This document shows positions 17,358 to 57,563 of a stretch of 64,000 nucleotides of DNA, piece by piece. The DNA is from Gemmatimonadota bacterium (lineage in GTDB: Bacteria > Gemmatimonadota > Gemmatimonadetes > Longimicrobiales > Gaopeijiaceae): the NCBI GenBank assembly GCA_022560615.1, contig JADFSR010000011.1, positions 1 through 64,000 on the forward strand, given 5' to 3'. Under the pieces are notes generated by a model, which had not been told where the DNA came from, searched no databases, and saw only the letters and a list, made by a program, of their open reading frames with translations. The number at the start of each line of letters is the position of its first letter. Positions within the stretch are counted from its first letter, which is position 1. The position numbers were made by a program, and so were the translations under genes.

Positions 17358-19718
17358 ATGTCCGACGCCATTGCCCGCTCCTTCCTAGTAATCGCCGGCT
17401 CAATCCTGGCCACGCTTCCGCTCGCGACATCGGCGCAGCAAGCCACCGCCGGGGCGTCAGCCATCTCTGCGGACTTTCCCTACGAGTCCCGTTACGTAGA
17501 GGTCCTGGGCTCGCGCATGCACTACGTCGACGAGGGCGAGGGCGAGCCGATTCTCTTCCTCCACGGGAATCCGACATCGTCCTACCTGTGGCGCAACGTC
17601 ATGCCCTTCGTGTCCGACGACTACCGCGCGATCGCGGTCGACCTGATCGGGATGGGGAAGTCCGACAAGCCGGACCTCGCGTACACGTACCAGGATCACA
17701 AACGCTATCTCGACGCATTCATCGAGGCCCTCGACCTGAGCGACGTCACGCTCGTCATCCACGACTGGGGCTCGGTGCTGGGGTTCAACTACGCGATGGA
17801 CCACGAGGACAACGTCGTGGGCATCGCGTTCATGGAAGCAATCGTTCCTCCCGCGTTTCCAAGAGCCCAGCCCATGGGCGGCCCTCTGGGCAGGTATCGC
17901 ACGGCGGACGGTGAGGAGCTCGTCCTCGAGCAGAACCAGTTCGTCGAGGTGATCCTGCCCGGAAGCGTCGTGCGCGGCCTGACGGAAGAGGAGATGGAGT
18001 ACTACCGCGCGCCGTATCCGACGCCGGAGTCGCGGCTGCCGACGCTACAGTGGCCGCGCGAACTACCCGCGGCTGGCGAACCCACGCGCAACGTTGAGGT
18101 CTTGAACCGGATCGGTGAATGGATGCGTGAGACCGACATCCCGATGCTCCACTTCTGGGCGCGGCCGGGCGCGCTCAACAACGAATCTTTCGCCGATGCG
18201 ATGATCGAACGCATCCACAACATCCAGACGTCGTTCGTAGGGTCGGGTCGCCACTACATCCAGGAGGACCAGCCGGAGGCGATCGGGCGCACCCTGGCCG
18301 ACTGGAGGCGGCGGATCGATCAGGTCGCTTCCCCCGGCATCACCAACGGGCAAGGCGAGATCGCGGGGGAGGTGACGACCACCAGCGTCATCCTGCAGTC
18401 TCGGTTGACCCGTGGCAGCGCCTTGGTTCGTGGCGATCTCGCGGGTGCACGGGGGACGGCCCGATTCGAGCTGGCAACGACCATGGGATTTGCGGATTCC
18501 TTCGAGTCGGAGTGGTTGCCTGCGACACCGGACAACGACTTCATCGTCAAGACGAAGATCGACGGGTTGAATCCGGCGACCCGCTACTACTACCGCGTCA
18601 TCTTCGGCCCAGATCGGGAGCGCGTCCGGGCCGGCCCCACGCGCACGTTCGAGACGCTCGACGGCGCGGAGGTGGCGAGCGAAGTCAGCTTCGTGGCGGT
18701 CACCGGCATGCGGTACAACGCGTTTCAAAACCAGTACCAGGGTCCCGACAAGCACCTGGGTTATCCGGCTCTGGAGACGATCCTCCAGCTGAACCCGGAC
18801 TTCTTCGTCGCGACTGGAGACAACGTCTATTACGACGTGCCGTTTCCTCTTGCGGCGAGGACGCGCCCCGAGCTTCGGCAGAAGTGGCACGAACAGTTCG
18901 TGCAGCCCAGGTATGCCGACCTGTTCGCGCAGGTCCCGACGTACTGGGAGAAGGACGACCACGACTCGCGCTACAACGATTCGGACAACACCGGCGATGC
19001 GGAGCCAAGCGTCGAGTTGGGCATCGCGATGTTCCTCGAGCAGGTCCCCGTCGTCGATCCCGACGAAGCGAACCCACTGACGTACCGGACGCACCGAATC
19101 AACAAGGACCTCCAGATCTGGCTGACCGAGGGGCGCGACTACCGCAGCCCCAACATGATGACGAATGGTCCAGGGAAGACGCTGTGGGGTGCCGAGCAGC
19201 TCGCGTGGCTCGAGCGAACGCTGCTCGAGAGCGATGCGACCTTCAAGATTCTGATCTCACCGACGCCGATGATCGGCCCGGACGATGCCGAGCAGGCGGG
19301 CCGGCCCGCGGAAGGTCATGACCCCGTGAAACGGGACAACCACGCCGACCCCTCGGGCTTCCAGTACGAGCGCGACGAGTTCTTCAGCTGGATGACCGAC
19401 AACGGCTTTCTGGAGGATCAGAACTTCTACATCATCTGCGGGGACCGGCATTGGCAGTACCACTCGATCCACCCCACCGGCTTCGAAGAGTTTTCGACCG
19501 GCGCGCTCGTGGATGGCAACTCCCGGCTGGGGAGGAGTCCCGGAGACCCAGGATCAACCGATCCCGATGCGTTGATCGAGCAGCCGTATACGCAGACTGA
19601 GCCCTCGGGCGGGTTCTTGCACGTCACGATCACGCCTGGTGAGCGACCGACTGCGACGTTTCGGTTTCATGACGAACGGGGTGTGTTGCTGCATGCGGTT
19701 GAGAAGGTCGCGAGGTAG
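17358..19718 (+). CDS. Haloalkane dehalogenase-like hydrolase fused to PhoD-like phosphatase, secreted
   Basis: 786 aa. A signal peptide (to about residue 27) is followed by a complete haloalkane-dehalogenase-like alpha/beta hydrolase (about 35-325): 'LFLHGNPTSSYLWRN' (halide-binding Asn), nucleophile Asp and halide-binding Trp in 'VIHDWGSVLG', catalytic Glu in 'AFMEAIVPP' and catalytic His in 'GSGRHYIQEDQPEAIG'. Residues about 340-786 form a PhoD-type alkaline phosphatase/phosphodiesterase: Fn3-like 'TTTSVILQSRLTRGS' then metallophosphatase motifs 'VATGDNVYYD', 'YWEKDDHDSRYNDSDN' and 'IICGDRHWQYHS'. Both catalytic sets look intact, so this is a true two-enzyme fusion in the periplasm, not a truncation product. 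Joint substrate unknown. Confidence 0.88.
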   Translation: MSDAIARSFLVIAGSILATLPLATSAQQATAGASAISADFPYESRYVEVLGSRMHYVDEGEGEPILFLHGNPTSSYLWRNVMPFVSDDYRAIAVDLIGMGKSDKPDLAYTYQDHKRYLDAFIEALDLSDVTLVIHDWGSVLGFNYAMDHEDNVVGIAFMEAIVPPAFPRAQPMGGPLGRYRTADGEELVLEQNQFVEVILPGSVVRGLTEEEMEYYRAPYPTPESRLPTLQWPRELPAAGEPTRNVEVLNRIGEWMRETDIPMLHFWARPGALNNESFADAMIERIHNIQTSFVGSGRHYIQEDQPEAIGRTLADWRRRIDQVASPGITNGQGEIAGEVTTTSVILQSRLTRGSALVRGDLAGARGTARFELATTMGFADSFESEWLPATPDNDFIVKTKIDGLNPATRYYYRVIFGPDRERVRAGPTRTFETLDGAEVASEVSFVAVTGMRYNAFQNQYQGPDKHLGYPALETILQLNPDFFVATGDNVYYDVPFPLAARTRPELRQKWHEQFVQPRYADLFAQVPTYWEKDDHDSRYNDSDNTGDAEPSVELGIAMFLEQVPVVDPDEANPLTYRTHRINKDLQIWLTEGRDYRSPNMMTNGPGKTLWGAEQLAWLERTLLESDATFKILISPTPMIGPDDAEQAGRPAEGHDPVKRDNHADPSGFQYERDEFFSWMTDNGFLEDQNFYIICGDRHWQYHSIHPTGFEEFSTGALVDGNSRLGRSPGDPGSTDPDALIEQPYTQTEPSGGFLHVTITPGERPTATFRFHDERGVLLHAVEKVAR

Positions 19719-32316: not shown

Positions 32317-33516
32317 TCAATTTCTTCTGGGCCAGGTCGCTCCCTGGTGCCGCGGAGCGTCCCCGATCCCCATATAGACGAACTTGTGAAGCCGCCGACC
32401 CTCGTAGGTCTCGGTAGCATAGATATTGCCTTGCGAGTCCGTATCGATGCTATGCACCGCCTGGAACATCCCGGCATAGCGGCCGCCGGTACCGATGGTG
32501 GAGACCTCTTCCATCGTCTGCCGATCGATGATGCGGATCCGGGCGTTCTTCCCGTCGGCGATATAGAGGAAGCTCTGCTCCGGGTCGGGCGAGAAGGCGA
32601 TGTCCCAGGTCGATCCATCACCAAGCGTCTCAGGCGCGTAGTACGCCTCCCGAACGAAGGTGCCGTCGGTCTGGAAGACCTGGACGCGGTTGTTGGGGCG
32701 GTCGCATACGTAGACCAGCCCATCGTTCGAGGGCTCCGCGCAGTGGACCGGGGTACGGAACTGCTGCTCCTGGTACTGATCGGCGGACCAGCCGGTGCCG
32801 GCCTGTCTCAGTCCCTCGTACTCGTAGTCGTCGTCCGGCCGATTACCGTAGGCGCCCCAGTATCTCTTGATCTCCCCGGAGTCCATGTCGACGACCGCCA
32901 CTCGCTTGTTCGCGTACCCGTCCGCGAAGTACGCCTCGTTGGCCTCGAAGTCGAACTCGATATCCGCCACTCGTCCATAATGCTCCATACTCGTGCTGTT
33001 AGGGTCGTTCCCCGGCTCGCCGTACGTCTCGAGGTACTCACCCTGCTGGGTGAACTTGAGCACGTGGGAGTCGCCGCCTCCGTTCCCGCCGATCCAAATG
33101 TTCCCCATCTGGTCGATGCCGAGTCCGTGATTCGAGGCCGGCCAGACGTACTCTCCGGTCTCTGAGGGGCCACCCCATGCTCGGACCAGGTTCCCTTCGG
33201 GGTCGAATTCGAGGACCGGGGGCGCGGAGGAGCAGCACTCGGCGAGAGGGGGATCCTGGTCCGCACCGGCCTCGGCGCCGGCGACGCCTCGATGCACGAT
33301 GTAGACATGATCCTGGGCGTCGATGCTCACACCGATGACGGTCCCGTAGATCCAGGCGTTCGGGAGGGGCTTCGGCCAGAAGGGGTCCACCTCGAAGATC
33401 GGCGCTCGCACCGTCTGCGAAAGGGCCACGCCTTCGAGCGCTGCCTGCCCGACGCCCAGAAGCGCGATGGCCACAACGAGACCGCCGCCGATGATCAGAT
33501 TCCGCTGCCGGTTCAT
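32317..33516 (-). CDS. Secreted six-bladed NHL-type propeller protein (copy 1)
   Basis: 399 aa. A signal anchor at 4-26 ('LIIGGGLVVAIALLGVG') is followed by propeller blades: 'IYGTVIGVSIDAQDHVYIVH', 'NHGLGIDQMGNIWIGGNGGG', 'YVCDRPNNRVQVFQTDGTFV' and 'VHSIDTDSQGNIYATETYEG'. A Cys pair 'ECCSS' and 'HCAEPSNDG' are shared with the neighbour copy at 33542, which lies 25 nt upstream; the two share 'F.VD.FWP.PL' near the N-terminus and 'ADGYANKRVAVVDM', so they are tandem duplicates. Binding or lyase role unknown. Confidence 0.88.
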   Translation of the reverse strand: MNRQRNLIIGGGLVVAIALLGVGQAALEGVALSQTVRAPIFEVDPFWPKPLPNAWIYGTVIGVSIDAQDHVYIVHRGVAGAEAGADQDPPLAECCSSAPPVLEFDPEGNLVRAWGGPSETGEYVWPASNHGLGIDQMGNIWIGGNGGGDSHVLKFTQQGEYLETYGEPGNDPNSTSMEHYGRVADIEFDFEANEAYFADGYANKRVAVVDMDSGEIKRYWGAYGNRPDDDYEYEGLRQAGTGWSADQYQEQQFRTPVHCAEPSNDGLVYVCDRPNNRVQVFQTDGTFVREAYYAPETLGDGSTWDIAFSPDPEQSFLYIADGKNARIRIIDRQTMEEVSTIGTGGRYAGMFQAVHSIDTDSQGNIYATETYEGRRLHKFVYMGIGDAPRHQGATWPRRN

Positions 33517-33541
33517 CTCTTCTCTCCTGTTACGAACGTCC

Positions 33542-34744
33542 TCATCGGGACGCTGCTGGATAGAGCGCCCCTTGGTGCTCGGCCGTGACCAGACCCATCC
33601 CGAGGTTCACAAATCTCTGGACACGCCGCCCCTGCCCGTTCTCAGCCGTGTAGACATTGCCCTGCGCATCCACAGCCACCGCACCCAACTCGCGGAAGTG
33701 GCCCGGGTAACGTCCCCCGACGCCGAAGGAGGTCTGGAACTCCAGCGATGCTCGGTCGAGGATCATGACCCGCTCGTTCATGCCATCGGCGACGTACAGG
33801 AATCGCTGGTCCCGGTCCGGCGAGAAGGCGATGTCCGACACCGAGCCATTGCCCAGAGTGGCGCGCGCAAGGATCGCCTCGGTTACGAACGTCCCGTCCG
33901 TTTCGAATACCTGGATCCTATTGTTCCCCCGGTCGCACACGTAAACGAACCCGTCGTTGGAGAGCTCCGCGCACGTGACCGTGCGGAACTGCTGGGCGGC
34001 GGGAGCCGCGGGGTCGTACGGTCCGAGATCCGTGTCGTCGGGCGTGTTGCCATAGGCGCCCCATGACCGCTTCACCTCACCCGTGCTCATATCGAGCACG
34101 GCTACTCGCCGGTTGGCGTAGCCATCGGCGACGAACACCTCGTTCGCGTCTTCGTCGAAGGAGAAACCAGCCGCACCTCCGAAGCTGCCGGTGCTCTGGC
34201 CGACCTCACCGATCGTCATCAGGTGCTGGCCATCGCGTGAGAATTTGAGGATGTGGCTGTCCACAGTTGGCGCGGGCGGTGGGGCGCCGCCGCGGCCACC
34301 TCCACGACCTCCACGACCTCCACGGCCACCGCCTCCCCTCGCCACGCCACCGCCGATCCAGACATTCCCTTCGGGGTCGACAGCGATCGCATGGGGCCGC
34401 TCGGGCCACGGATACCCCTGATCTGGCTCGCCCCACTCACGGACCAACGAGCCGTCCGGGGCGTATTCCAACACTGCCTTCGTGGGCGTGCAGCAGTCGC
34501 CAGTACCGGTCACCGAGTTGATCTCGTTGCCCCGGCTGAAGCCGTCCTGGCGGGTCACGATGAGCACGTTGCCGTCGGGGGCCACGGTTACACCCGACAC
34601 CGGTCCCAGGATGTTCGGATAGTCCAACGGCATGGGCCAAAAAGCGTCCACCTCGAAGGTCGGGACCTGGCCGTCGTCGTCAGTGCAACCGACGCTCAGG
34701 CCGACCAGCAGCGCCGCGACCGCCCCCTCGACGATCAGTCTCAT
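33542..34744 (-). CDS. NHL-type propeller lipoprotein (copy 2) with Gly/Arg-rich insert
   Basis: 400 aa from ATG 34744 (AAGGAG upstream). The lipoprotein signal ends 'VGLSVGCTDDD' (Cys20). Propeller blades match copy 1 in order ('VSGVTVAPDGNVLIVTRQ', 'PHAIAVDPEGNVWIGGG', 'YVCDRGNNRIQVFETDGTFV', 'LGAVAVDAQGNVYTAENGQG'). After the second blade comes 'ARGGGGRGGRGGRGGGRGGA' and a Pro run, absent from copy 1; the DNA (about 34270-34345) is a near-tandem CCACGACCT/CCACC array. First gene of the two-gene minus-strand unit. Confidence 0.88.
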   Translation of the reverse strand: MRLIVEGAVAALLVGLSVGCTDDDGQVPTFEVDAFWPMPLDYPNILGPVSGVTVAPDGNVLIVTRQDGFSRGNEINSVTGTGDCCTPTKAVLEYAPDGSLVREWGEPDQGYPWPERPHAIAVDPEGNVWIGGGVARGGGGRGGRGGRGGGRGGAPPPAPTVDSHILKFSRDGQHLMTIGEVGQSTGSFGGAAGFSFDEDANEVFVADGYANRRVAVLDMSTGEVKRSWGAYGNTPDDTDLGPYDPAAPAAQQFRTVTCAELSNDGFVYVCDRGNNRIQVFETDGTFVTEAILARATLGNGSVSDIAFSPDRDQRFLYVADGMNERVMILDRASLEFQTSFGVGGRYPGHFRELGAVAVDAQGNVYTAENGQGRRVQRFVNLGMGLVTAEHQGALYPAASR

Positions 34745-34963
34745 CGGTCTCTCCTTGTGCTCATGTGACTTCCCCATGGTCCTTGGGCCGGGAACAGTAG
34801 GCGACACTCCGGCATCCGTCCAGGATGACCCGGGCCGGTGGTTCGCGTCACTGCCCGCGCGGCCCGATGAAACGGTAGGACAGCCCTTTCCTCCCGATCA
34901 ACGGGGGGCTCTCTTGCGGTGTCCCCGAGAAGAGGAAGCCTGCCCCACCAGGTGGAGGAGTAC

Positions 34964-36271
34964 GTGCTGAAGACCCTGATCGGCAGATTCGTTGACTTCA
35001 AGAACGACGACGAGCTGAAAGGGATGTTATGGGCCGCCGCCTACGGCTTCTTCATCATGTTCTCGTACTACATCCTCAGGGCTGTACGTGACGAGATCGG
35101 GGCAGAGGAGCGAGGGAATCTGCAGATCCTGTGGACCGTTGTGTTCTTCGTGATGGTCTTCGCGGCGGTCCCTGCATACTCGTGGGTCGCGTCGCGGTAC
35201 TCGCGGGGCGTCTTCGTTCCGCTCGCGAATCGCTTCTTCATCGCCTGTCTGATCGCATTCTGGGCTAGTCTCGTCTTCCTGCCCGAGGATGCTCGCCCGT
35301 GGATCGACCGCGTCTTCTACGTATGGACGAGCGTCTTCGCGCTTTTCGTCGTGACGATCTTCTGGGGACTCCTGGCGGACTGTTTCGACCACGATCAGGG
35401 CAAGAGGCTCTTCGCGTTCATCACGGTCGGAGCCTCTGTCGGAGGCCTCGTCGGCTCGGCTGTCACGATCCGGTTGGCGGAGCAGATCCCTGTCTTCTAC
35501 CTGCTCCTGATCTCGTGCGTGCCGCTCGAGGTGGCCTCCTGGTTTGCCGGAGCACTGCACCGGAACTTCGGAACCGGCGCGGTCGCGGCCGCGGGCGAGT
35601 CGGAACGTCCTCTCGCCGGAGATGCGATATCGGGGATGCGTGCGGTGTTCGCTTCCCCCTACCTCGCTGGGATCGCAGGGTTTATCGCCTTGATGACGTT
35701 CGCGTCGACGATCCTCTACTTCGCCCAGTCAGACCTCGTGTACGGGGCGATGACCGATCGGGGCGAGCGCACCGCTTTTTTGGCAAAGATCGATCTTACC
35801 GTGAGCTCGCTCACGATTTTCTTCCAGGTCTATCTGACTGCCCGGATCATCCGCTGGCTGAACGTGGGAGTGGCACTGGCACTGATCCCGGTGGCGGTAG
35901 CGGTGGGATTCGTCGCGCTGGGCCTCTACCCGACGCTGGCGACGCTGGTCGTCGTGCAGGTGATCTACCGCGCTGGCCGGTATGGCATCACCAAACCGGC
36001 CCGCGAGGTGCTCTTCACCGTCGTGTCGCGTGAGGAAAAGTACAAATCCAAGGCCTTCATCGATGCCGCGGTGTATCGCGGTGGTGATCTCGTCAGCGGC
36101 TGGGTCTATGCAGGCCTCGCCTGGGTGGGGCTTTCACTCGGCGTGATCGCTCTGATCGCGGCTCCCGTCGCAGCCGTCTGGGCGATTGCCGCACTAGGGC
36201 TCGGCGCGCGCGGCGACGTGATGGCGGCCAAGAGTGAGAGCGCGCAGCAGGAAACGGCCTCGGTCGGGTGA
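34964..36271 (+). CDS. MFS/NTT-like multi-span transporter (ADP/ATP-translocase-like family)
   Basis: 435 aa from GTG 34964, chosen because GGAGGA lies just upstream; the frame opens at GTG 34919. About 11-12 membrane segments; the first contains 'FFIMFSYYILRAVRDEIG', the signature of bacterial proteins annotated as NTP/NDP exchange or MFS transporters. Others: 'VVFFVMVFAAVPAYSWVASR', 'FWGLLADCFDHDQGKRLF', 'GASVGGLVGSAVTI' and 'YRAGRYGITKPAREVLFTVV'. Inner membrane. The substrate is uncertain; in free-living bacteria members of this family are not known to exchange ATP. A 12-bp palindrome GGCTCGCGAGCC follows at 36278-36289. Confidence 0.82.
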   Translation: MLKTLIGRFVDFKNDDELKGMLWAAAYGFFIMFSYYILRAVRDEIGAEERGNLQILWTVVFFVMVFAAVPAYSWVASRYSRGVFVPLANRFFIACLIAFWASLVFLPEDARPWIDRVFYVWTSVFALFVVTIFWGLLADCFDHDQGKRLFAFITVGASVGGLVGSAVTIRLAEQIPVFYLLLISCVPLEVASWFAGALHRNFGTGAVAAAGESERPLAGDAISGMRAVFASPYLAGIAGFIALMTFASTILYFAQSDLVYGAMTDRGERTAFLAKIDLTVSSLTIFFQVYLTARIIRWLNVGVALALIPVAVAVGFVALGLYPTLATLVVVQVIYRAGRYGITKPAREVLFTVVSREEKYKSKAFIDAAVYRGGDLVSGWVYAGLAWVGLSLGVIALIAAPVAAVWAIAALGLGARGDVMAAKSESAQQETASVG

Positions 36272-36409: not shown

Positions 36410-37096
36410 CTAACGCCGTGCCACCAAGGCGGCGACGTAGCCGTCGGGCACCGGCACTTCGAAGACCCGCCAGTCGGTGGGATCCTCACCGTCGATCTCG
36501 GTGTGGAGCAGCGCGGGCGGGACGCCGGGGAGGAACGTGACCTCGAATGCGTGCAGCTCCGTGGTCAGGCCAGTGCCTTTGGCTTTCAGGTAAGCCTCCT
36601 TCCGGGTCCAGCAGCGGTAGAAGTTGGGTAACCGCTGCTCGGAGGGCGCTTGCTCGAGGAGGAGGCGAGCTTCCCCCGGGGCGAAGTAACGCCGTGCGAT
36701 GGCCTCGACGGCCAGACCCTCCTTCTTCCACTCCACGTCCACGCCCACCGTTCGACCCCGCGACACCGCGTAAAGGAAGACGTCGCCGGAGTGGGAGACG
36801 TTGAACTCGATGCCGCTCTCGGCGTGCGCGCCGGTGAGCAATGGCTTGCCATGCTCTCCTTCGCCGAAGCGAATGGCCTCCGGCGCGCACGCCAGTGCGT
36901 CACCCAGGATCGTGCGCAGGAAGCCCCGGGACACGATGAAGGAGTCGCGGGCGTGCTCGACCTTGAAGCCGGACGCGCGCGCGCTCTCATCCTCACTGAG
37001 CAGGTCGCACAGCGCCGAGTGCTCTGACTCCGTCCCGGGGCCCTCGACGAGCCAGAGATCGATGCCGTCGGGGGCAGGCAGTCTTCTTGGCTTCAT
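36410..37096 (-). CDS. Sfp-type 4'-phosphopantetheinyl transferase, last gene of the pfa-ole operon
   Basis: 228 aa. Motifs of the Sfp/Gsp class are complete: 'FNVSHSGDVFLYAV' (P2 region), Mg-binding 'VGVDVEWKK', and 'CWTRKEAYLKAKGTGL' (W-x-x-K-E-A-x-x-K-x-x-G-x-G-L). It transfers the phosphopantetheine arm from CoA to the carrier-domain serine, here most plausibly Ser1165 of PfaA, converting the synthase to its holo form. Starts 2 nt after oleD stops (TAGCCATG), so it is co-translated with the operon. PUFA synthase loci elsewhere often include a dedicated enzyme of this type (PfaE role). Confidence 0.93.
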   Translation of the reverse strand: MKPRRLPAPDGIDLWLVEGPGTESEHSALCDLLSEDESARASGFKVEHARDSFIVSRGFLRTILGDALACAPEAIRFGEGEHGKPLLTGAHAESGIEFNVSHSGDVFLYAVSRGRTVGVDVEWKKEGLAVEAIARRYFAPGEARLLLEQAPSEQRLPNFYRCWTRKEAYLKAKGTGLTTELHAFEVTFLPGVPPALLHTEIDGEDPTDWRVFEVPVPDGYVAALVARR

Positions 37097-37098
37097 GG

Positions 37099-38085
37099 CT
37101 AACTACGTAGCGATGCCGCGAGCCGCTCCATGCCCTCGTCCAGGCTGATGGCCGGCTCGTAGCCCAGGTCGCGGCGCGCCGCCGAGATGTCGAACCAGTG
37201 CGCGGTGGAGAGCTGGCGCGCCACGAAGCGGGTCAGGGGGGGCTCGTTTTCGATGCCCAGGAGCCCGTAGACGCTCTCCATCAGCGCGCCCAAGAAATAC
37301 GCGACGCCCGCCGGAATCCGCCGCTTCACGGGTGGCAGGCCTCCCGCTGCGAGGATTCGGTTCACTAGGTCCGCCAGCGGCAAGGGTTCGCCCTGCGAGA
37401 TGAAGTACGCCTTACCTGCGATAACAGAGCCCGGCGCGAGTCGATCGGCTGCGAGTACGTGCGCATCGGCCGCGTTGTCGACGTAGACCGAGTCGACCTC
37501 GTTGGGTCGGTCGCCCAGGAGGCACAGCGTACCGGAGCGGCCTCGGTCGAGGATGCGCGGCACCAAGTGCGGGTCGCCGGGGCCCCAGATGAGGTGCGGA
37601 CGAAGCGCCACGGTCGCGAGATCGGCACCGTTGCTCTCGAGCACCCGGCGCTCAGCGATCGACTTCGTGCGGGGATAGTCGCTCAGGTAGCGCTCCGCGT
37701 ACGGTGCGCTCTCGTCCACGCCGATCTGGTCGGTACCGGCGAAGGTCACACTGGGCGTGCTGGTATACACGAGACGCTGGATCGCTTCCGCGGAGCACGC
37801 CTTCAGCACGTTGTCGGTGCCGACTACGTTGGCGCGGTGGTACGACTCCGTGGAGCCCCACACCCCGGCCTTAGCCGCTACGTGGAAGACGATGTCGCAA
37901 CCGCGGGCTGCCCGCAGGACCGCGGCTTCGTCGGCGAGGTCTCCGCGCACGCTCTCCACGCCGAGCTGCTCGAGGGCAGGGTAGGCGCCCCGCGAGAAGC
38001 TGCGCACCTCGTCGCCACGCGCACGCAGATTGCGCACGATGGCCAGACCCAGAAAGCCGCCCCCTCCGGTGACGAGGGCCTTCAC
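37099..38085 (-). CDS. oleD: OleD, NADPH-dependent 2-alkyl-3-ketoacid reductase
   Basis: 328 aa from GTG 38085, overlapping the oleC stop by 4 nt (GTGA). Extended SDR/3-beta-HSD-like: Rossmann 'VKALVTGGGGFLGLAIV' at residues 1-17, 'GDLAD' after beta-3, 'DIVFHVAAKAGVWGS', and the catalytic 'SDYPRTKSIAE' (YxxxK). 'ALRPHLIWGPGDPHLVPRI' and 'HWFDISAARRDLGYEP' match the OleD/NSDHL-like group. In the Ole pathway it reduces the beta-keto acid made by OleA to the beta-hydroxy acid before OleC. Its place in a complete oleABCD set supports the name. Confidence 0.9.
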   Translation of the reverse strand: MKALVTGGGGFLGLAIVRNLRARGDEVRSFSRGAYPALEQLGVESVRGDLADEAAVLRAARGCDIVFHVAAKAGVWGSTESYHRANVVGTDNVLKACSAEAIQRLVYTSTPSVTFAGTDQIGVDESAPYAERYLSDYPRTKSIAERRVLESNGADLATVALRPHLIWGPGDPHLVPRILDRGRSGTLCLLGDRPNEVDSVYVDNAADAHVLAADRLAPGSVIAGKAYFISQGEPLPLADLVNRILAAGGLPPVKRRIPAGVAYFLGALMESVYGLLGIENEPPLTRFVARQLSTAHWFDISAARRDLGYEPAISLDEGMERLAASLRS

Positions 38086-39719
38086 GAGAGTTGGCTTGTA
38101 GCCCAGACGGCCAGCTTCTCGCGGAAGATCTTCGCGTTGTGGCGGATGTCCACGGGGAAGTCCGCATGGAAGAGGAACGTGTCGATGCTCCGCGTTCGCT
38201 CGTTGCCGGCGGCCGTGGCGCGAAGCTCTGCTTCCGTCTTGGCGCGGTCCACCGGGTGGTCCTTGAGCAGCTCCACGCAGAGTACCGGAAGCGTGCGTCC
38301 ATCCCGCTGCACGCCGACCAGCGCAGTCCGATACACGTCCGGGTGGGCATTGAAGACGCCCTCGCACTGTAGCGAGTAAAGAGTCTCGCCTTCGAGCTGG
38401 ACCCGGTGGGCCTTTCGGCCACAGAACCAGAGTCGTCCCTGCTCGTCCACGTAGCCCACGTCCCCCATGCGGTGCCAAAAGCCGCCTTCGGGATCGGCGA
38501 TCTTCGCCAGCGCGGTGGCGTGATCCCGCCCGTAGTATGCGCGACTCACTTGGCTTCCCTTCACGGTGAACTCCCCCACCTCTCCGGTGGGCAGCTCCAG
38601 ATCGTCGGACCAGGTCGGGATCGGCTCGTCGTCGATTCCGATGACCCGCACGTGCACACGCTCCACCGGAAGGCCCACGCAGACACCTCGGCCCAGCTTC
38701 GTCTGGGCGGCGGTCTCCGCGAGGATGGCCCGGCTCCCTATGGAGCTGACCGGCAGCGCCTCGGTCGCGCCGTAGGGCGTATGAATTTCGGTGCCCTCGG
38801 GGAGCATGCGGCTGAAGCATTCCAGCACCGTGGGCTGTGCCGGGGCCCCTGCCGAGATCACTCGGCGGAGAGTCGGCAGCTTTACGTCGTGCGCGGCGCC
38901 GTAGCTTCCCACGCGGTGCAGAAGCGCCGGTGAGGCGAACGTGTTGGTGACGCCGTACCTCTGGATGGCGGTGAGGATCTTCTCCGGATCCACGTTCGCC
39001 GGACGTGTGGGGTCCATCTCCGGGATGACTGCGCTCATGCCCAGCGCAGGATCGAAGAGGGCGAACAGCGGAAAGGTGGGTAGGTCGACCTCCCCCGGTT
39101 CGATCCCATACGTCTTCCTCAGCAGCTCCACCTGGGCCAGGAAATTCCCGTGCGTGTAGACGGCACCCTTGGGCACGCCTGTGGAGCCGCTCGTGAACAA
39201 GATCGCGGCGACGTCGTCCTCCGACGTCTCGACCGGCTCCATGAGATCGAGGGTGCTGGCGCGGAGCTTCGCGAGCGTCGTTCCGCCCCAAGAGAGCCTG
39301 CGCCCGGCGGTGACCCGCAGCCGGATCGTGTCCTTGCCCCAGCCCAGGACTATTCGTGCCGCGTGGGCTTTGGGGATGCCGATGAAGGCCTCCGGCTCCG
39401 CTTCTGAGAGGCACGCCTTCAAGCTCCTGAGACCCATACCGGGGTCCACCATCACGGGAACGATGCCCGCCTTGAAGAGGCCGAATGTGAGCGCGAAGAA
39501 GTCCCAACTCGGCGGCACCATCAGGACGGTGCGCATGCCGCGTCCGATGCCGTACGCCGTCAGCGCTGTCGCGAGACGGCTGCTGTCCTCGTCCAGCTCG
39601 CGAAAAGTGCGCTCAGAGAACCCGCCTCGCCCGTCGGGCCACGCGATCGCCATTCTATCGGGCTGGCGCGCGGCCATGTCCGGCAGCGCGGCGGCGATGT
39701 TCATCGACCTCTGCTTCAC
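38082..39719 (-). CDS. oleC: OleC, beta-lactone synthetase (AMP-dependent ligase family)
   Basis: 545 aa from GTG 39719, overlapping the oleB stop by 4 nt (GTGA). ANL-superfamily enzyme: P-loop 'AAILFTSGSTGVPKGAVYTH' at 171-190, 'PYGATEALPVSSIGS', and 'FWHRMGDVGYVDEQGRLWFC' with the hinge Asp, then 'HNAKIFREKLAVWA' carrying the C-terminal Lys. 'FGLFKAGIVPVMVDPGMGLR' is typical for OleC. It adenylates the beta-hydroxy acid from OleD and closes it to a beta-lactone. The family alone could be an acyl-CoA ligase; the oleABCD context decides. Confidence 0.92.
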   Translation of the reverse strand: MKQRSMNIAAALPDMAARQPDRMAIAWPDGRGGFSERTFRELDEDSSRLATALTAYGIGRGMRTVLMVPPSWDFFALTFGLFKAGIVPVMVDPGMGLRSLKACLSEAEPEAFIGIPKAHAARIVLGWGKDTIRLRVTAGRRLSWGGTTLAKLRASTLDLMEPVETSEDDVAAILFTSGSTGVPKGAVYTHGNFLAQVELLRKTYGIEPGEVDLPTFPLFALFDPALGMSAVIPEMDPTRPANVDPEKILTAIQRYGVTNTFASPALLHRVGSYGAAHDVKLPTLRRVISAGAPAQPTVLECFSRMLPEGTEIHTPYGATEALPVSSIGSRAILAETAAQTKLGRGVCVGLPVERVHVRVIGIDDEPIPTWSDDLELPTGEVGEFTVKGSQVSRAYYGRDHATALAKIADPEGGFWHRMGDVGYVDEQGRLWFCGRKAHRVQLEGETLYSLQCEGVFNAHPDVYRTALVGVQRDGRTLPVLCVELLKDHPVDRAKTEAELRATAAGNERTRSIDTFLFHADFPVDIRHNAKIFREKLAVWATSQLS

Positions 39720-40603
39720 GAAGGCTCCGCTTCGGCCACGAACGCCTCCACGAGCGAGCGCACCTCGTCGCGGGCGTCCTCCAGTATGTAGTGGCCGGCT
39801 CCCTCATACCTGTGCGTCCGGGCGTGGGGCATTCGCCGCTCCCACTCCTTCAGGTAGTCCGGGTCGAATACGAAGTCACGCAGGCCCCAAAGCAGCAGGG
39901 TCGGAGTGTCCTGGAAGTGCCTGAGGCTCGCCTGGACCTCGCTCACGACGTCGTAGCCCGGGTCGGTGGGTCGGAGAGGGATGTCCTGGATGAAGCGGTG
40001 CACGGCCAGGCGGTGATCCCATGAATCGTACGGCGCCAGGTAGGCGCTGCGCTCACCTTTTGTGAGCCGTCGCTGTGTGGCGCAGTACCGGAGGGCGCCG
40101 CGGCTGAACAGGTTCAGCCTGCGCACGAGGAAGCCGCCGAGCGCCGACCGGGCGAGGCGCAGAGAGAGCGGCACTCGCTTGCCGGCAGGTAGATGGAAGG
40201 CTGCGCTGTTCAGGATCACCAGGCGCTCGATTCGTTCGGGGTGACGCGCAGCCCAGGCCATGCCGATCATGCCCCCCCAGTCGTGCACGACCAGCGTGAC
40301 CTTCCCGTCCAGCTTCGCGTGGTCGACGAGGCGCTCTAGGTCCTGCACCCGGCGTTCGAGACGGTACGGGTACGAGTCGTCATCCGGCTTGTCCGAGAGT
40401 CCGCACCCGACGTGGTCGGGCACGATGACCCTGTGTCTGTCCCGAAGCGCGAGCACCAGGTGGCGGTAGTAGTACGACCAGGTGGGGTTGCCGTGCACCA
40501 TGAGCACGGGGGTACCTGCGCCTTCGTCCAAGTAGTGCATGCGGACGCCGTCGAGATCCAGGAAGCGGCCTTCGAAAGGATAGTCCTCGAACGGCGGCTC
40601 CAC
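39716..40603 (-). CDS. oleB: OleB, beta-lactone decarboxylase (alpha/beta hydrolase)
   Basis: 295 aa. The start is placed at GTG 40603, 2 nt after the oleA stop with GGAG 8 nt upstream; another GTG at 40612 overlaps oleA. Haloalkane-dehalogenase-like fold: 'VLMVHGNPTWSYYYRHL' (Asn39 in the oxyanion region), nucleophile Asp108 in 'LVVHDWGGMIGM', His in 'EGAGHYILEDARDE'. Length and motifs fit stand-alone OleB, which decarboxylates the cis-beta-lactone to the internal olefin. Note that the unrelated locus at 17358 carries a second protein of this superfamily. Confidence 0.9.
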   Translation of the reverse strand: MEPPFEDYPFEGRFLDLDGVRMHYLDEGAGTPVLMVHGNPTWSYYYRHLVLALRDRHRVIVPDHVGCGLSDKPDDDSYPYRLERRVQDLERLVDHAKLDGKVTLVVHDWGGMIGMAWAARHPERIERLVILNSAAFHLPAGKRVPLSLRLARSALGGFLVRRLNLFSRGALRYCATQRRLTKGERSAYLAPYDSWDHRLAVHRFIQDIPLRPTDPGYDVVSEVQASLRHFQDTPTLLLWGLRDFVFDPDYLKEWERRMPHARTHRYEGAGHYILEDARDEVRSLVEAFVAEAEPS

Positions 40604-40605
40604 GC

Positions 40606-41661
40606 CTACCACTCCACTCCGAGCATGATGCAGTTCAGACCACTTCCGATACCCAGGAAGGCCACGCGGTCGCCCGGCCCGAGGACCTCTCTCTCCTCCG
40701 CCAGCGCGGCAGTCAACGGGAGCGACACAGTGCCGATGTTGCCCAGGTAGGGGAAGGTCGAGAAGTCCTTCTGGGGGTCGATGCCGATCGACCCGAGGAT
40801 CGTGTCCCTGTGAGCCGCGCCCACCTGGTGGCAGATCACCCGGTCCACGTGGTCGGCTTCCCAGGCCATCTGATGCAGGAAGTCCTGCCACGTTTCCTTC
40901 GCCAGGGTGACGCCGTGCTGCAGGACCGACGCGGCATCCGTGTACATCCACTGCGGCAGCGGCTCGACGCGGTGTAGGGTAGGTGCGTCTTCGAGGCCCC
41001 AGCGGCACAGATCATTGTGCTCGGGAGCCGCGCGCTGCGAGCCTCCGAGCACGCGGTGCGTACCCCCGTTGCCGAAGGAGCCATCGGTGATGAGCACCGC
41101 GACCGCGCCGGAGCCGCCAGTGAGCGTGGCCAGGCCCTCGGTGTAGGTAGCCATCGTGGCCTCGCGCAGCATCCGCTCGATGGTGACGTCCACGATCTCT
41201 CTCGCGGTTTCGGCCGAGACGACGATGCCTGCGCGAATCTGGCCCAGCTCGATCCGGTTGGCGATCTCGAGAACGCCGTTGAGGATACCGAGGCACGCGT
41301 TGCTGATGTCGTAGACGGACACGGCGCCCTGCACGCCCAACTCCGCGGCCACGGCGCACGCGGTAGCGGGCTCGAAGTGCTCGCGGCAGACACCGGCGTA
41401 CACCACCGTCTCCAGCGCCTCGGCGGGGACTCCGGATCTGGCGAGCGCCTTCTTCGCCGCCGCGGCAGCGCTCCTGGACAGCGAATGGTTCGGCTCCCAC
41501 CAACGACGCTCTTTGATGCCGGTGAGCGCCTCGAGAGAGCCCTCCGGGACGTGCAGCTGCTTGTAGAGCGGCTCGAGGCGCTCCTCGAGCTCGTCGGACG
41601 TGACGACGACGGGCGCGAGCTCGTAGCCGATGGCTTCGAGATGAACCTTGTCGTACCTCAT
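40606..41661 (-). CDS. oleA: OleA, head-to-head acyl condensing thiolase
   Basis: 351 aa; ATG 41661 overlaps the pfaC stop (ATGA). KAS III-like thiolase with all OleA residues: nucleophile Cys123 in 'YDISNACLGILNGV', Glu97 in 'CREHFEPATACAVA', His278 in 'ICHQVGAAHRD' and Asn308 in 'LGNIGTVSLPL'. The spacing (Glu to Cys 26, His to Asn 30) equals that of Xanthomonas OleA (E117/C143, H285/N315). It joins two fatty acyl thioesters without loss of both carboxyls, giving a 2-alkyl-3-keto acid. Direct fusion of its reading frame to the PUFA synthase genes implies that the synthase product is its substrate. Confidence 0.94.
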   Translation of the reverse strand: MRYDKVHLEAIGYELAPVVVTSDELEERLEPLYKQLHVPEGSLEALTGIKERRWWEPNHSLSRSAAAAAKKALARSGVPAEALETVVYAGVCREHFEPATACAVAAELGVQGAVSVYDISNACLGILNGVLEIANRIELGQIRAGIVVSAETAREIVDVTIERMLREATMATYTEGLATLTGGSGAVAVLITDGSFGNGGTHRVLGGSQRAAPEHNDLCRWGLEDAPTLHRVEPLPQWMYTDAASVLQHGVTLAKETWQDFLHQMAWEADHVDRVICHQVGAAHRDTILGSIGIDPQKDFSTFPYLGNIGTVSLPLTAALAEEREVLGPGDRVAFLGIGSGLNCIMLGVEW

Positions 41662-44600
41662 TCGGCTTCCCCCACGATCTCGACGCTGAAGTCGCCCATG
41701 TGGTAAATGGTGCGCCCGTCCACGGTGAGGTATCCGGATGCGATCACGCGGCCAGCCTCATCGTCCACCTCGGTGATGACCGCTTCCACCTCGACCCTCG
41801 CGTCGGTGGGCAGCACCTGGCCACGATAGGTCCAGTTGTGCTCACGCCCCAGGCCGTTCGTCCGCCACGCCGTGTCGGCATCGACGTGCCACCGGTCCGT
41901 GGCGTACGCCTTGAGGAGCTGGAGGAAGGACTCGCACCCCAAGGAGCCCGGCCACACGGGGTCATGCATGAAATGTGCCTTGAAGAACCACGCCTCAGAA
42001 TCCACCGGGATGCTCCCCCGGACGAAGCCGAGGCCGTGGGGCCCACCCTCGCGCAGGAGCACGTCGATGCTCGCCAGCATGCGGAAGCCCTCGTCGGGAT
42101 GGGGCGCCTCGGTAGGGTAGCCGAAGCTGACGGCCTGAGTCATCTCGGCCTGGGTGGGCTCGTACTTCTCCGCCTCTCGGATGCCGATCTGGTCGGCCAG
42201 GGACTCCGCGCTGAAGAAGCCGAAGTAGGTATCGCCCTCGAAGACCACACCCTGGGCGTCGGTCATGCGCATGTCGAAGCGCTCGATGATCATGCCGCCC
42301 GAGTGGGACACGTCCGTCAGCCGCACCTCGGTGGTGAGCGTACCGGAGTCCGGGCGCACCGCCCGTCTCTGGACCGCGCGTCCCCCCAGATTCCTGAAGC
42401 GGAGGTCCGTCTCACTCGTCAGAGCCGAGCCGCAATACGCGGCCAGCCAGCCGCACGGTTGCAGCGCGACCTCCAGCAGTACAGCGAACGGCATATCCGC
42501 CTGGCGGTTGGACTCGAAATACCAGCCGTCCGTGGGCACGTCGTACTCCACTGTGGCCGCTGCGCCGGCCTCCAGGTCCCAGGCCGCACCCACGGTGTCT
42601 ACGACACGGTCCATGAAGGCGTAGGGCGGGCCCGGCAGGCGGGCGATAGCCCGCTCCTCATCGAACGGCAGATAGCGGTCACCGAACGCTTCAGACGGCT
42701 TGCCGATGGCGAAAGCCAGGATGGACTCCTGATCGTACAGCACACGTTTTTCACGCGGATGCCAGAGCGCCTCCACGTCCTCGCGCACGAGGCCCGTGAG
42801 CCGCATGGACATGTCCGCGATCTCGACGACGGGCCTGCCGTCGGCGTACATGAGCGCGTCGACGATGGCGTAGGGCTCCGGCCGGTAGCCGAGCTCCTTG
42901 ACCTCGATCTCATACGTGACGCGCCGCGTGGTCTCGGTGACCTGGCCCCGGCACTTCAGACGGCTCTTCACGCCGGGCACCGGTTCGTACCGGACCTTAC
43001 CCACTTCTCCCACCCACCCCATGCGTAGCAGATAGATGCGCAGCGTGTGCAGACAGCACTCGTACATGAGCGTGCCCGGCATGACCATGTCGTCGCTGAA
43101 GTGGCAGGTCAGGAACCAGTCGTCGGGGTGGATGTCGGCTTCCCCGCGGATCATCCCTATGCCGAAGCGGCCGCCCTCGGGATCCACGTGGGTCACCCGG
43201 TGCACGAGCTCCATGAGCCCACTGGGCAGCGTCTCCGGCGTGCCGATAGGCAGGTCCGCGAAGGTCGGACCGAAGCACGTTGTGAGGTCGCCCCGGCGCA
43301 ATGCCGCGATCTGCTCCTCGTCGTAGGAGTCGCCGGCCCGCATGGGCGCGAGGTTCGTCCAGCCCTCCGGCAGGACACCCGGTCGGGGCTGTTGGTCGAT
43401 CTTGGTTCGCACGATGCCCTGGCCCGCCTCGAGTTCCTCGATCGTGAAGAAGCCCGCGCAGCCCTCGCGCATGGATAGGAGCGGACGGCCGTCCACCGTC
43501 GCCTCGAAGCCGAAGTAGAAGAGCCACGTCTCACCCTGGCGGAAGAAGCGCTCGATGTTGATGTCGTACCGGATGACCTTGCCCGGTTCTGGCAGGTGGT
43601 CGTGGAACGTCACCACAGCATCCAGGAGGCGATACACGGCCAAGCCGTCGGTCTGTGCGTCGATGCCCAGCCAGCCGGCGAGAAAGAGGTCGGCCTGTCC
43701 CGACTCGACGGCGATGCATGTCGGGATCGCGCCGCAGCTCAGGTACCAGGGGCGCACGCCTACGTCGTGCTCCGTCACGACACGTCCGCCGGTCATGGAG
43801 TGCGGCTCGCCCTCGATGCTGAGGATGCGGTCCACCAGCATGAGCGGCTCGTCCGGCAGGCGGACTCGCGTGGCGTGTTCGTCGATGGACGCGTACGACT
43901 CTCCCAGTACCTTGCCGATGGACCCGACTGCGAACTCCAGGCACGCCTCGCGATCGAGTGCAGTGGGCGGGGAGAGAGGCGTCCGCGTCGCAGGGGCAGC
44001 CAGCAACTGCTCGACAAGCCGGAACTGGAGGGCCGCGGTCTCCTGCAGCGCGCGGTCGAGGTCGTGGGCGGTGCGCAGGTAGGTGCTATGCGCTTGAGCC
44101 CGGGCCTCGCTCGAGGCGCTCAGCCCCGCCAGCAGTGTCGGGTCGGCGGCGAGGAGCACGCCCCCGGACGCCAGAGCGGGAAACTCAATCAGCGTCGCTG
44201 CCGGGGCGGAGGCTGCCGCGGTCTGCACTACTGGCACAGGTGGCATAGCGCCGGGCGCGGGTGTCGGCCCCGCTGCATCCAGCGGAGCAGAGGCGGGCAC
44301 CGGGGAAGGCTGCGCGTGGGACACAGCAGGCTCCATCTGCGGGCCGCGCCAGCGGATATGGAACGGGTCGCCGCCGATGGGGATCCGCAGCGCCGATGAG
44401 GCCTCGCGCAGGACGCTGCGATGGCCGAGCGCTCTGGTCTCGACGCCGTAGAGAGGCTGTAGGTCCACGTGGATTCGCTCAGCGATGAGCCGACCCAGCA
44501 AGCGCAGCAGCGAAGACACGTCACCCTTGTGAGCGCTCAGCGCAGACTGAGCGACGTGTGGGCGGCCCTCGAGGATGCGCGCGATCATGCGCGTGCACGA

Positions 44601-48521: not shown

Positions 48522-51500
48522 TCAGGAGCTGACCTCGAGGGGTAGTCTATTGCTGCGGAACGTGCTCGTCAGCCCCTCGTCGATGGTGTTCTCGCAGCCC
48601 TCGAAACGCGCGACCAGTTGGCCGTCGGCATCGAGGAACTCCAGGTCGGCGAATACCCGGGTCTCGTCACTCTTCGTGATGCGAGCCACCACCTGGGCAC
48701 CGTCCTTCGGGAACGCGCGGTACTGGCGGTAGCTGGCCGCCGCACACGGCAGCGAGGGACCGGCGCCGTGGATCCCCGTCCAGAACGTGAGCAGCTGGAT
48801 TCCCACGTCGAGCACCAACGGATCGGTCAGCCAGCGCCGGCGGAACGGACGGTCCATCCACTGGTTCGGCGGCGGGGCCGCCGATGCGTCCGCGATCACA
48901 CCCTCGGGGGAGCAGATGTGCACCCGTTCGATTCCCTGGAGATCGGGGCCGTGGAAGAGGTGATCGCGGTAGATCTCGGCCGCAGTCTTCTCGTATGCGG
49001 GTCCCTGAGGTGGGTCCAAGCGGGCCTCGCCCTGGGGGAGGCTCTCAGTCAAAAGGATCTCCGCCCGAGCGTGCAGGAACTCCCTGCCGTCGTCCTGCGT
49101 GGCGCGCAGCTCCACCGGGACCCGGTAGTAGCCTTCTTCGTCCTTCCGTGCATCACCTGCGTGGATCTTCAGGCGCAGGCTGGCGTCGGCGTCCAGGACC
49201 AGACCCTTGAGCAGGCTGAGGTTGTCACAGCCGTGGAACTTCAGGCCGGGGTTACCATGCAACGCTCCGTGGGCGAGCCATTCGGGCAGCATCGCCATGG
49301 GCACGACGGCCTTGCCATCCAGGACGTGGGAGCGCAGGAACGAGCAGCTGGCTACGTCGATCACCTCTTCAGCCACCAGCGGCAGCGCAGACGACGCGGC
49401 GGACTCCATGATTGCGGCGTCGGGGGCGGGTCCCAGGACTACACGCTCGACGTCGGCCTGGTCGGTGGCCAGCTCGCGGAGCACGTGGTCTGCCCCCTGG
49501 GCTAGCGGAATGAGGGGTACGCCTTCGTTGGCGAAGACCGTCCTCAGGGACTCGTCCACCATGCCGCCTTCCCAGGGGCCCCAGTTGAGACTCAGGACCC
49601 TGCAACCTGGAAGACGCCGGGCCTCCTGTTGAGCGACCTTGTTGAGCACCTCGTTGGCGATCGCGTAGTCCACCTGACCCACGCGACCGTATCGCGCTGT
49701 GGACGAGCTGAAGAGGACGAGAGCGCGCAAGGCGTCGCGATCCACTGCCTCGAGGAGGTTGCGCAGGCCCGCCACCTTCGGCTCATAGACCTTCTTGAAA
49801 CTCTCGGCTGTCTTGTCGAGGATGTGCTGGTCGGCCAACACGCCCGCCCCGTGCACGAGGATACGGATCGGGCCGTACTGCTCGCGAATCGAAGAGAGAG
49901 CGTCGCGCACGGCGGACGCGTCGCGCACGTCCACCTGCATGTAGCGTACCGTCGCGCCCGTCTCGTTCATGCGCTCGAGGTTGGTGCGGATTTCCCGCTC
50001 CGCGCGGATGCGGTTGTAGATCTCACCGGCCTCGCGGGGCGACGTCGCGTCACCGCGGGCGAGCACGGCCTGCTTGATCTCAGCCTCGGTTCTGAGCTCC
50101 GCCCGCCACTCGGGTTCGACTTGCGGCTCCGGGCTGCGGCCGAGTAGGACGAGGGTAGGCCGGCACGCCTTCGCAAGCGCCAGGGCGACCTCCGCGGTCA
50201 CGCCTCGGGCCCCGCCGCTGAGCACTACGACATCGCCTTCGCCGAGGGGCAAGGAGCCGTTGGCGGACGGGAGCTCTCCGCCGCCCACCAGCTCGAGCAC
50301 GCTACGGCCCCCGGCGCTCAGACCCACTTCCACAGGACCGGCGCGGAACAGCTCCGCCACAATGGCGCGCGCAGCGTCTGCATCCTGCAGCTCCGGCGCA
50401 AGGTCGAGCGCCCGGCAACGCACCTCCGGCCACTCACCAGCCGCCGACTTCGTGAGGCCTGCGAAGCCTCCGGAAAGCGGGTCGGCGATCTCGTCGCCCG
50501 TGGTACCGAAGGCTCCGTCCAGGCGGGAGGCGCTCACGAGGAACGCTCCTCCCTCCCTCCCGGCGGTGCGCAGGCCGTTTCCGGCCGCCTGAACCACCTG
50601 GAGCACGCCCAGCAGGTCCGCGTCCGACGCACCTTCGCGGGGCGGGAGGATGATAACACCCACGACGGGCTCGTTCATCGAGCCGTTCAGCGACTTCACC
50701 GACACGACGCGCGGCTCGTAGCCATCGCTCTTGAGGAGTGCGAGGATCTCGGACGCCAGCACGGTGTCTCCGTCGGTGATCCAGATCGGCGCTCCAGCGG
50801 CGGGCCGAACCACATCCTCTTCGGGGGCGCCGTTGAAGTCCCGCGACCGCAGCACATACCGCTGCAGCGGTCGCTGGGCCACGCCCTCGACATGCGCTTC
50901 GGCATCCGCAGGGGCTGTCGGTGCCTCCGCCTCCGCTACCGACGTCGCACTCTCCGCGGCGGGCGGCTGAACCGTGACTTGTTCCTCGTCGACGGCCGGC
51001 GTGGGCTCGCGTGCGGCGCCCTCTCCGGGGATCAGGTCGAGCAACGACTGGAGGGTGCGCAGCGTGCCGAGCTGGTCGGGTCCGACCTTGGGAGCGTTGG
51101 GTAGCTGATCCTGAAGCGCCGAGAGGATCTCGACACGCTTGATGGAATCGATGCCGAGGTCCGAGTCGAGCTCCATCCTGAGCTCGAGCACTTCCACAGG
51201 ATATCCCGTCTTGTCGGAAACGATGTCCAGGAGGATCTTCGCCGCGTCGGCGCCCGGCGCTGCCGCGGGGGCCACAGCGGCGGTGGCCGGTTCCGACGCC
51301 CTCGCTGGCACCGAGGACGCGGCCGGCGCCTCGGCCGCGACAGGTGCATGGGTCTCAGAGCCCCCAGCGGCAGGGGTTGACAGGGTGGTCGGTTGAGCGT
51401 CGGGCGCCGCGGGTGCAGGTAGGGAAGTCAGCGGCGGTGGAGAGGACGCTGCGGGAAGCATCGGAGGTGCCGGTGCCACGGGCATGCCCATGGACATGTC

Positions 51501-56416: not shown

Positions 56417-56553
56417 CCAGGATGCGACCCCTCCAACCGCTTCCTTCACAATCGGATAGGCCGCGCAGCCGCCTTCTCGTCCGGGGTCCACACGGCGGCA
56501 CAAGGCGGGACGCATTACTTGCGCTGCTGCCGCGGGGACTGGAGGACTTCCCC

Positions 56554-56824
56554 ATGACCGACCTGACCCTGCTGTCCGACCTGCCAGTGCGCGTCACCAT
56601 CCCTGTGGCGTGGAGGGATCTCGACGCCCTCCAGCACCGTGGAAGTGGGCGCGCGGGTCACCGAATTGGGCGAGGACCGCGTCACCGTCATCTACCGCAT
56701 CACGAGCCAGCAGCTCGGCGCGGTGGCGGCGAAGGGCGACGGTCGCATCGTCTGCTTCGACTACGACGCGGGTCAGAAGGCGCCGTTGTCGGAGGCGGTA
56801 CGAGAAGCGCTGGAGGCTCTGTGA
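56554..56824 (+). pseudogene. Acyl-CoA thioesterase (4HBT, YbgC/FcbJ-like) with central deletion
   Basis: ATG 56554 begins a typical 4HBT hotdog start, 'VRVTIPVAWRDLDALQH', which should continue 'VNN..Y..YFE'. Instead, at about 56636 the sequence jumps, in another frame, to the end of the same family: '(T)VEVGARVTELGEDRVTVIY' to 'FDYDAGQKAPLSEAVREAL', stop at 56822-56824. Roughly 55-60 central codons with the catalytic region are missing and the frame is shifted, so it is inactive. It is divergent from pfaD; its 3' end overlaps the end of the secretin-like gene. Confidence 0.78.
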
Positions 56825-57399
56825 ACCAATGGGGCCAGGCGCGGGACTCTTAATCGAGAAGTGTCCGTTGAGACCCCCAGCAGCCGCGCGACCGCGCGTT
56901 GCACCCGAGCGATGTCAGAGACGATCAGCGAGTTCGTACTCTCCGCAGCGGTGACGCTGCCACGCGGGGAGAGCAGGGGGGCGATCGTCGCTCGGAGCTC
57001 GGATGCCCGCGAGAATGAGATTCGGTAGACTCTCGTCACGATCGGCTCGACCGCTTCCCGCGTGTTCAGAGCCTCGATGTTGCTGACCCGAATGATCCCG
57101 TACTCGTCTTCGACAGCGATGAGACCCTGCGCGGAGAGGATCGCACGTAGCGCGGCATCCCACGGCTGATCCTTGATCTCGGCAGTGACGGATCCCGTGG
57201 CGTTCTCACCGCGCACGATCGATTTGCCGGAGAACGTGGAGAAGGCGAGCAGAACGTCGGCGATCGGTGCTTCCACCCACGTCGCCGAGATCCGGGGCAG
57301 CTCGGTCCGGTCTGACGGCTCGGCTGGCACCGCCTGAGCTAGCGCGGGCGCCGCGCACAGAGCGAGCCCGAGACCTGCCAGCAATGCTGTTGAGGACAT
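56773..57399 (-). CDS. Secretin/TonB N-terminal (STN) domain protein, probably truncated
   Basis: 208 aa from ATG 57399 (GGGAGG upstream). After a signal peptide (1-22, '..APALAQ') comes an STN/N0 domain ('WVEAPIADVLLAFSTFSGKS', 'WDAALRAILSAQGLIAVED', 'YGIIRVSN') and an N1-like secretin segment ('TRVYRISFSRASELRATIAP', 'SVTAAESTNSLIVSDI'). Secretins such as PilQ would continue into a barrel; here the family similarity stops near residue 172 ('VARLLGVS') and the last 35 codons run through the thioesterase remnant in antisense. Likely a secretin cut at the same junction. Stand-alone STN proteins exist, so activity is not excluded. Confidence 0.7.
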   Translation of the reverse strand: MSSTALLAGLGLALCAAPALAQAVPAEPSDRTELPRISATWVEAPIADVLLAFSTFSGKSIVRGENATGSVTAEIKDQPWDAALRAILSAQGLIAVEDEYGIIRVSNIEALNTREAVEPIVTRVYRISFSRASELRATIAPLLSPRGSVTAAESTNSLIVSDIARVQRAVARLLGVSTDTSRLRVPRLAPLVHRASSASRTASDNGAF

Positions 57400-57563
57400 C
57401 GTAACCTCCCTTCGGGCGCCCGGTGAGCCGTCTCCCCGGCCGGCCACCGCGAATCGACGACTCCTTCGACGTTGTGACAAGATGGGCTGTACATCGGCCG
57501 GGTCGGGCCTACAATACGCGCGCCATGGCCCAGAAGCTCTCGCCCTCTGACCAGCCAGCACAC

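Follow-up and report, generated by a model that had tools for sequence, protein, structure and literature searches.

A putative Geobacter-type pfa-ole operon in Gemmatimonadota and the likely release of its polyunsaturated chain by OleA

The closest described counterpart of the locus analysed here is the cluster of Geobacter bemidjiensis, in which pfaD, A, B, C, oleA, B, C, D and pfaE lie in tandem, and this bacterium makes C31:9 (Yoshida et al. 2016, PMC4882568). Researchers had earlier proposed that Type I clusters, to which ole genes are often linked, feed olefin synthesis (Shulse and Allen 2011, PMC3098273). In Shewanella, both EPA and C31:9 come from one synthase, and Shewanella pfaA-E together with oleA gave a 31:8 ketone when expressed in an E. 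coli fadD mutant (Allemann et al. 2019, PMC6463001). Because an inactive OleA still cut EPA about tenfold, those authors inferred direct ACP binding, and in their view the acyl-ACP of PfaA is what OleA uses; the same paper reports earlier descriptions in which OleA uses acyl-CoA (PMC6463001). The marine PfaC has the architecture KS-CLF-DH2 without a C-terminal glycerol-phosphate acyltransferase (AGPAT) (PMC3098273), and the AGPAT has been described as a unique feature of the Pfa3 of terrestrial myxobacteria (PMC8436480; PMC6731297).

The window, which is the whole 64-kb stretch of Gemmatimonadota DNA that was analysed, carries on its minus strand a run of eight genes in the order pfaD-pfaA-pfaC-oleA-oleB-oleC-oleD-PPTase (Table 1), all of which have domain and family matches. 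The features by which such clusters are recognised were found together: pfaD, pfaA and a fused pfaBC are in one operon, and oleABCD and pfaE follow directly downstream. Adjacent frames overlap by four bases or are separated by only a few, consistent with a single operon, and most relatives likewise have the order pfaA-pfaC-oleABCD-PPTase. The nearest public relative is the Gemmatimonadetes MAG SZUA-1190, with an OleA identity of 90%. From gene content and described homologues, we consider it highly likely that the locus is a Geobacter-type pfa-ole operon in Gemmatimonadota, which would make a polyunsaturated long-chain hydrocarbon by OleA off-loading.

Table 1. Positions in the window of the operon genes and of two associated features
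Feature	Description	Position	Strand	Basis
pfaD	trans-acting enoyl reductase, 572 aa	54635..56353	(-)	TIGR02814 PfaD family, 630.8 bits (cut-off 449.25)
pfaA	KS-MAT-ACP-KR-DH, 2038 aa	48522..54638	(-)	TIGR02813 PfaA, 1354.5 bits (cut-off 1010.1)
pfaC (pfaBC fusion)	KS-CLF-AT-DH-DH, 2278 aa	41658..48494	(-)	Pfam and TIGR02816
pfaC stop/oleA start overlap	ATGA, four bases	41658..41661	(-)	
oleA	thiolase-fold head-to-head condensing enzyme, 351 aa	40606..41661	(-)	
oleB	beta-lactone decarboxylase (alpha/beta hydrolase, haloalkane-dehalogenase-like)	39716..40609	(-)	domain and family matches, conserved order
oleC	beta-lactone synthetase (AMP-binding)	38082..39719	(-)	NCBIfam OleC models, 692 and 671 bits, below the strict cut-offs of 900 and 850
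oleD	2-alkyl-3-oxoalkanoate reductase	37099..38085	(-)	NCBIfam OleD models, 471 and 460 bits, below the cut-off of 580
pfaE-like PPTase	4'-phosphopantetheinyl transferase	36410..37096	(-)	PF01648, HetI-like
Thioesterase remnant	broken hot-dog (4HBT_2) gene, divergent from pfaD	56553..56826	(+)	

Several other genes were noticed around the operon. STN and Secretin_N domains occur in a short stand-alone protein next to pfaD (56773-57561, minus strand), and a similar frame occurs in the congener (L111:13146-13622). Downstream of the operon lie two adjacent NHL-repeat (beta-propeller) proteins (32317-34807, minus strand), which are adjoined by a TLC-transporter-like gene (34919-36271, plus strand). 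Farther away, one frame (17358-19718, plus strand) joins an alpha/beta hydrolase domain to a following PhoD-like phosphatase domain.

The first-pass annotation had stated that PfaC stops about 100 residues after the His motif of its second dehydratase (DH2), that it has no lipid acyltransferase and that oleA is the next frame and overlaps its stop, and all three observations hold. The motif reads HFMHDPVWPG in the PfaC sequence, the two genes share ATGA, and the profile search that had been suggested for PlsC-type domains (E up to 10) gave FabA (PF07977, residues 254-386) as the sole match in the last 399 PfaC residues. PF01553 was absent from this tail at E up to 10 and also from the whole PfaC, in which KS, a CLF-like KS, AT and FabA were found; the AT stretch (1009-1348) corresponds to a PfaB-like match to TIGR02816 that falls below the model cut-off. 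Only 13 residues remain beyond the final FabA-type match, too few to conceal an acyltransferase domain, and the idea that PfaC ends in an unrecognised or divergent PlsC domain was rejected. As a positive control, the same profile library detected the PlsC-type domain of L099, a locus of genome G263, so the same search would have found one in PfaC. However, "missing" is an apt word only relative to the Pfa3 of Sorangiineae.

The same PfaC end was found across the relatives. The comparison comprised 48 rows in which DH2 and OleA could both be placed, covering Desulfuromonadales, Planctomycetota and Gemmatimonadota and including probable duplicates, as the pairs L006/L057 and L007/L060 look like the same contigs; PfaC ended 0-10 residues past the aligned DH2 in 47 of these 48 rows, the exception being a broken frame (L024), and oleA lay no more than 500 bases behind pfaC in 35 of them. 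The 4-bp overlap of pfaC and oleA recurs in the relatives L006, L009, L020, L051 and L059-L061, and such an ATGA is the usual sign of translational coupling from pfaC to oleA. Where the gap between the two genes is wide, open frames inspected by eye, without profiles, in eight relatives included no recognisable thioesterase; the gap of Desulfuromusa holds an oxidoreductase-like frame.

Within Gemmatimonadota, a PfaC-type DH2 was present in 16 of 298 sampled genomes, and 11 of these 16 had no OleA at a threshold of E<=1e-40. Four PfaC proteins of a type not linked to OleA (L100-L103) end 4-8 residues past DH2, with a PPTase or pfaA as the next gene. One of them, L101, belongs to genome G226 of the same family, which has an other-type Pfa synthase and, on a separate contig (L079), an unlinked ole cluster; its OleA is short (338 aa) and Xanthomonas-like, and its OleB-D are 58-59% identical to those of the window. 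In G263, of the same class, we also noticed a 2715-aa PfaC homologue (L099:3259-11406) in which both a PlsC-type domain (PF01553) and a PS-DH-like stretch come after DH2, an arrangement that resembles the myxobacterial AGPAT type in a Gemmatimonadota genome.

These data bear on the proposal that an ancestral PfaC carried a C-terminal glycerol-phosphate acyltransferase and that, after its loss here, OleA took over its function. The G263 protein indicates that such fusions exist near by, but none occurs in the compared members of the OleA-linked clade, the AGPAT has been regarded as special to terrestrial myxobacteria (PMC8436480), and PfaC stops after DH2 in genomes without OleA too. Because AGPAT-free PfaC occurs in Gemmatimonadota without OleA, a missing AGPAT does not predict OleA, and the replacement put forward by the first-pass annotation was not borne out; we regard such a loss with replacement as highly improbable. 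Judging from the compared proteins, a PfaC of this type ordinarily has no AGPAT.

The assignment of OleA itself appears to be right, as sequence, predicted fold and catalytic residues agree, and a condensing activity is predicted. Its best solved relatives are Xanthomonas OleA, and its predicted fold has a TM-score of about 0.91 to the X. campestris structures 3row and 4ku3. Glu97, Cys123, His278 and Asn308 are invariant in all 61 aligned OleA sequences; the catalytic residues of the family are Glu117, Cys143, His285 and Asn315 in the tagged Xanthomonas numbering, partly on the basis of titles of mutant entries in the PDB. A further common trait of the Pfa-linked OleAs is an insertion, at least nine residues long, that follows an LC(R/L)WG motif (after residue 222 here); this insertion is absent from the OleA of X. 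campestris and the unlinked one of G226, and the structure model of this region is of low confidence (pLDDT about 61-64, residues 221-240). Three arginines, R136, R143 and R324, are specific to the Pfa-linked clade and lacking in the X. campestris and G226 proteins, in a comparison of one clade with four outsiders, and this specificity may reflect only shared ancestry. In the tree, whose long branches leave some placements unsure, the Pfa-linked OleAs stand apart from both the Xanthomonas OleA and the unlinked OleA of the same family.

By analogy with the homologues, the Pfa synthase would build a polyunsaturated acyl chain on the PfaA carrier, which the PPTase would activate. OleA would then move the chain onto Cys123 and join it to a second one by head-to-head condensation, with the help of Glu97 of the partner subunit, and this would free the chain from the synthase. 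Subsequently, OleD would reduce the keto group, OleC would make the beta-lactone, and OleB would remove CO2; the resulting long-chain alkene would be polyunsaturated and probably near C31:9 as in G. bemidjiensis and Shewanella. The first-pass annotation had likewise proposed OleA as the release step, perhaps acting on the carrier. The first part of this idea stands, since OleA very probably removes the chain from the synthase, and its second part gains from the in vivo evidence in Shewanella (PMC6463001), in the light of which we think it probable that OleA accepts chains bound to the carrier and not to CoA; this mechanism was already proposed with that evidence in 2019.

Alternatively, OleA may act on ordinary acyl-CoA, in which case a thioesterase would free the chain and an acyl-CoA synthetase would reactivate it before condensation. 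This route agrees with the earlier descriptions of OleA as a user of acyl-CoA (reported in PMC6463001) and with a hot-dog thioesterase gene that lies divergent beside pfaD in the congener, where an intact 145-aa 4HBT_2 copy occupies the same place (L111:12417-12854); other 4HBT proteins also occur in the source genome, where genome-wide statements rest on targeted searches. In Shewanella, the thioesterase PfaT (Orf6) has to be intact for full yield (PMC6463001), and no molecule named P. profundum Orf6 was found with which to compare the linked 4HBT_2 gene of the congener and the window. In the window, however, about 155 bp are missing from inside this gene, which is broken by the resulting frame shift, and no similar thioesterase gene was found beside the clusters of seven other relatives, which weakens the route by hydrolysis and re-activation. 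Moreover, the ketone of the Shewanella genes forms without FadD (PMC6463001), and we judge the acyl-CoA route to be unlikely.

PfaA contains the Pfam domains KS, AT, one PP-binding, KR and PS-DH, and thus one ACP (motif GIDSIKR, at 51024-51251 of the window), as does the PfaA of the congener, while 2 ACPs are present in the family relatives and 3-5 in Desulfuromonadota. Because the same count occurs in the independent genome of the congener, assembly collapse is an unlikely cause, although both are draft assemblies. Single-ACP clusters were accepted by Shulse and Allen (PMC3098273), so the lone ACP is a deviation and not an exclusion, and tandem ACPs are usual but not obligatory. A single ACP would lower the flux, and we count this against our preferred explanation.

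The destination of the chains also has to be considered. The targeted searches gave five PlsC matches in the source genome, separate from PfaC, and PUFA might reach the phospholipids via such proteins, which we likewise count against that explanation. The operon could thus have two outputs as in Shewanella, where EPA and C31:9 come from one synthase (PMC6463001), with most full-length PUFA passing to phospholipids via separate acyltransferases and OleA diverting only a shorter intermediate. On the other hand, the ole genes lie inside the operon in clusters of the G. bemidjiensis type, for which the literature consulted reports C31:9 alone (PMC4882568), and one ACP with a coupled oleA suggests a dedicated route; we consider two outputs somewhat less likely than not. 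The strictest form of the opposite reading is that the single carrier, the lack of an intact linked thioesterase, the coupling of pfaC to oleA, and an OleA that would dock on the PfaA carrier with its loop and R136/R143/R324 make up a machine devoted to hydrocarbon, with OleA as the only exit and no PUFA in the membrane. We consider this form doubtful.

The Geobacter-type operon with OleA off-loading would extend a described hydrocarbon pathway to Gemmatimonadota, a phylum for which no paper on polyunsaturated hydrocarbons was found within the literature searched. Its compact version, with one ACP and no intact linked thioesterase, suits a clean in vitro test of whether the chain reaches OleA on the carrier or as a CoA ester. 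Among known systems, the OleABCD of Xanthomonas campestris shares the OleA fold, all four catalytic residues and the OleB-C-D chemistry, but it draws on chains of the type II FAS, and its OleA has no loop insertion. The Pfa1-Pfa2-Pfa3 clusters of Sorangiineae (Aetherobacter, Minicystis) resemble the window in having the ER gene first, an AT within the PfaC homologue and a PS-DH in the PfaA homologue (PMC6731297; PMC8436480), but their Pfa3 ends in an AGPAT, which is thought to load PUFA onto lysophosphatidate, and no ole genes have been described in the cluster. In Shewanella pfaABCDE and oleABCD, OleA also joins the Pfa synthase to a hydrocarbon and its catalytic Cys123 bears the same number, but pfaB is separate, there are several ACPs, pfa is not always linked to ole, and full yield needs an intact PfaT thioesterase. 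The cluster of Geobacter bemidjiensis, a known C31:9 producer, has the same gene order pfaD-A-(B)C-oleA-B-C-D-pfaE, an AT at the PfaBC position and no AGPAT; the window differs from it in its Gemmatimonadota host, its one ACP (3-5 in the Desulfuromonadota relatives counted) and the ATGA overlap of pfaC and oleA. Both the order of the genes and the transfer of the chain to OleA have known precedents in Geobacter and Shewanella, and what seems to be new is the operon in a Gemmatimonadota genus, its one carrier, the OleA loop with the clade-specific arginines, and the hot-dog thioesterase gene by pfaD, of which the congener has an intact copy and the window a broken one.
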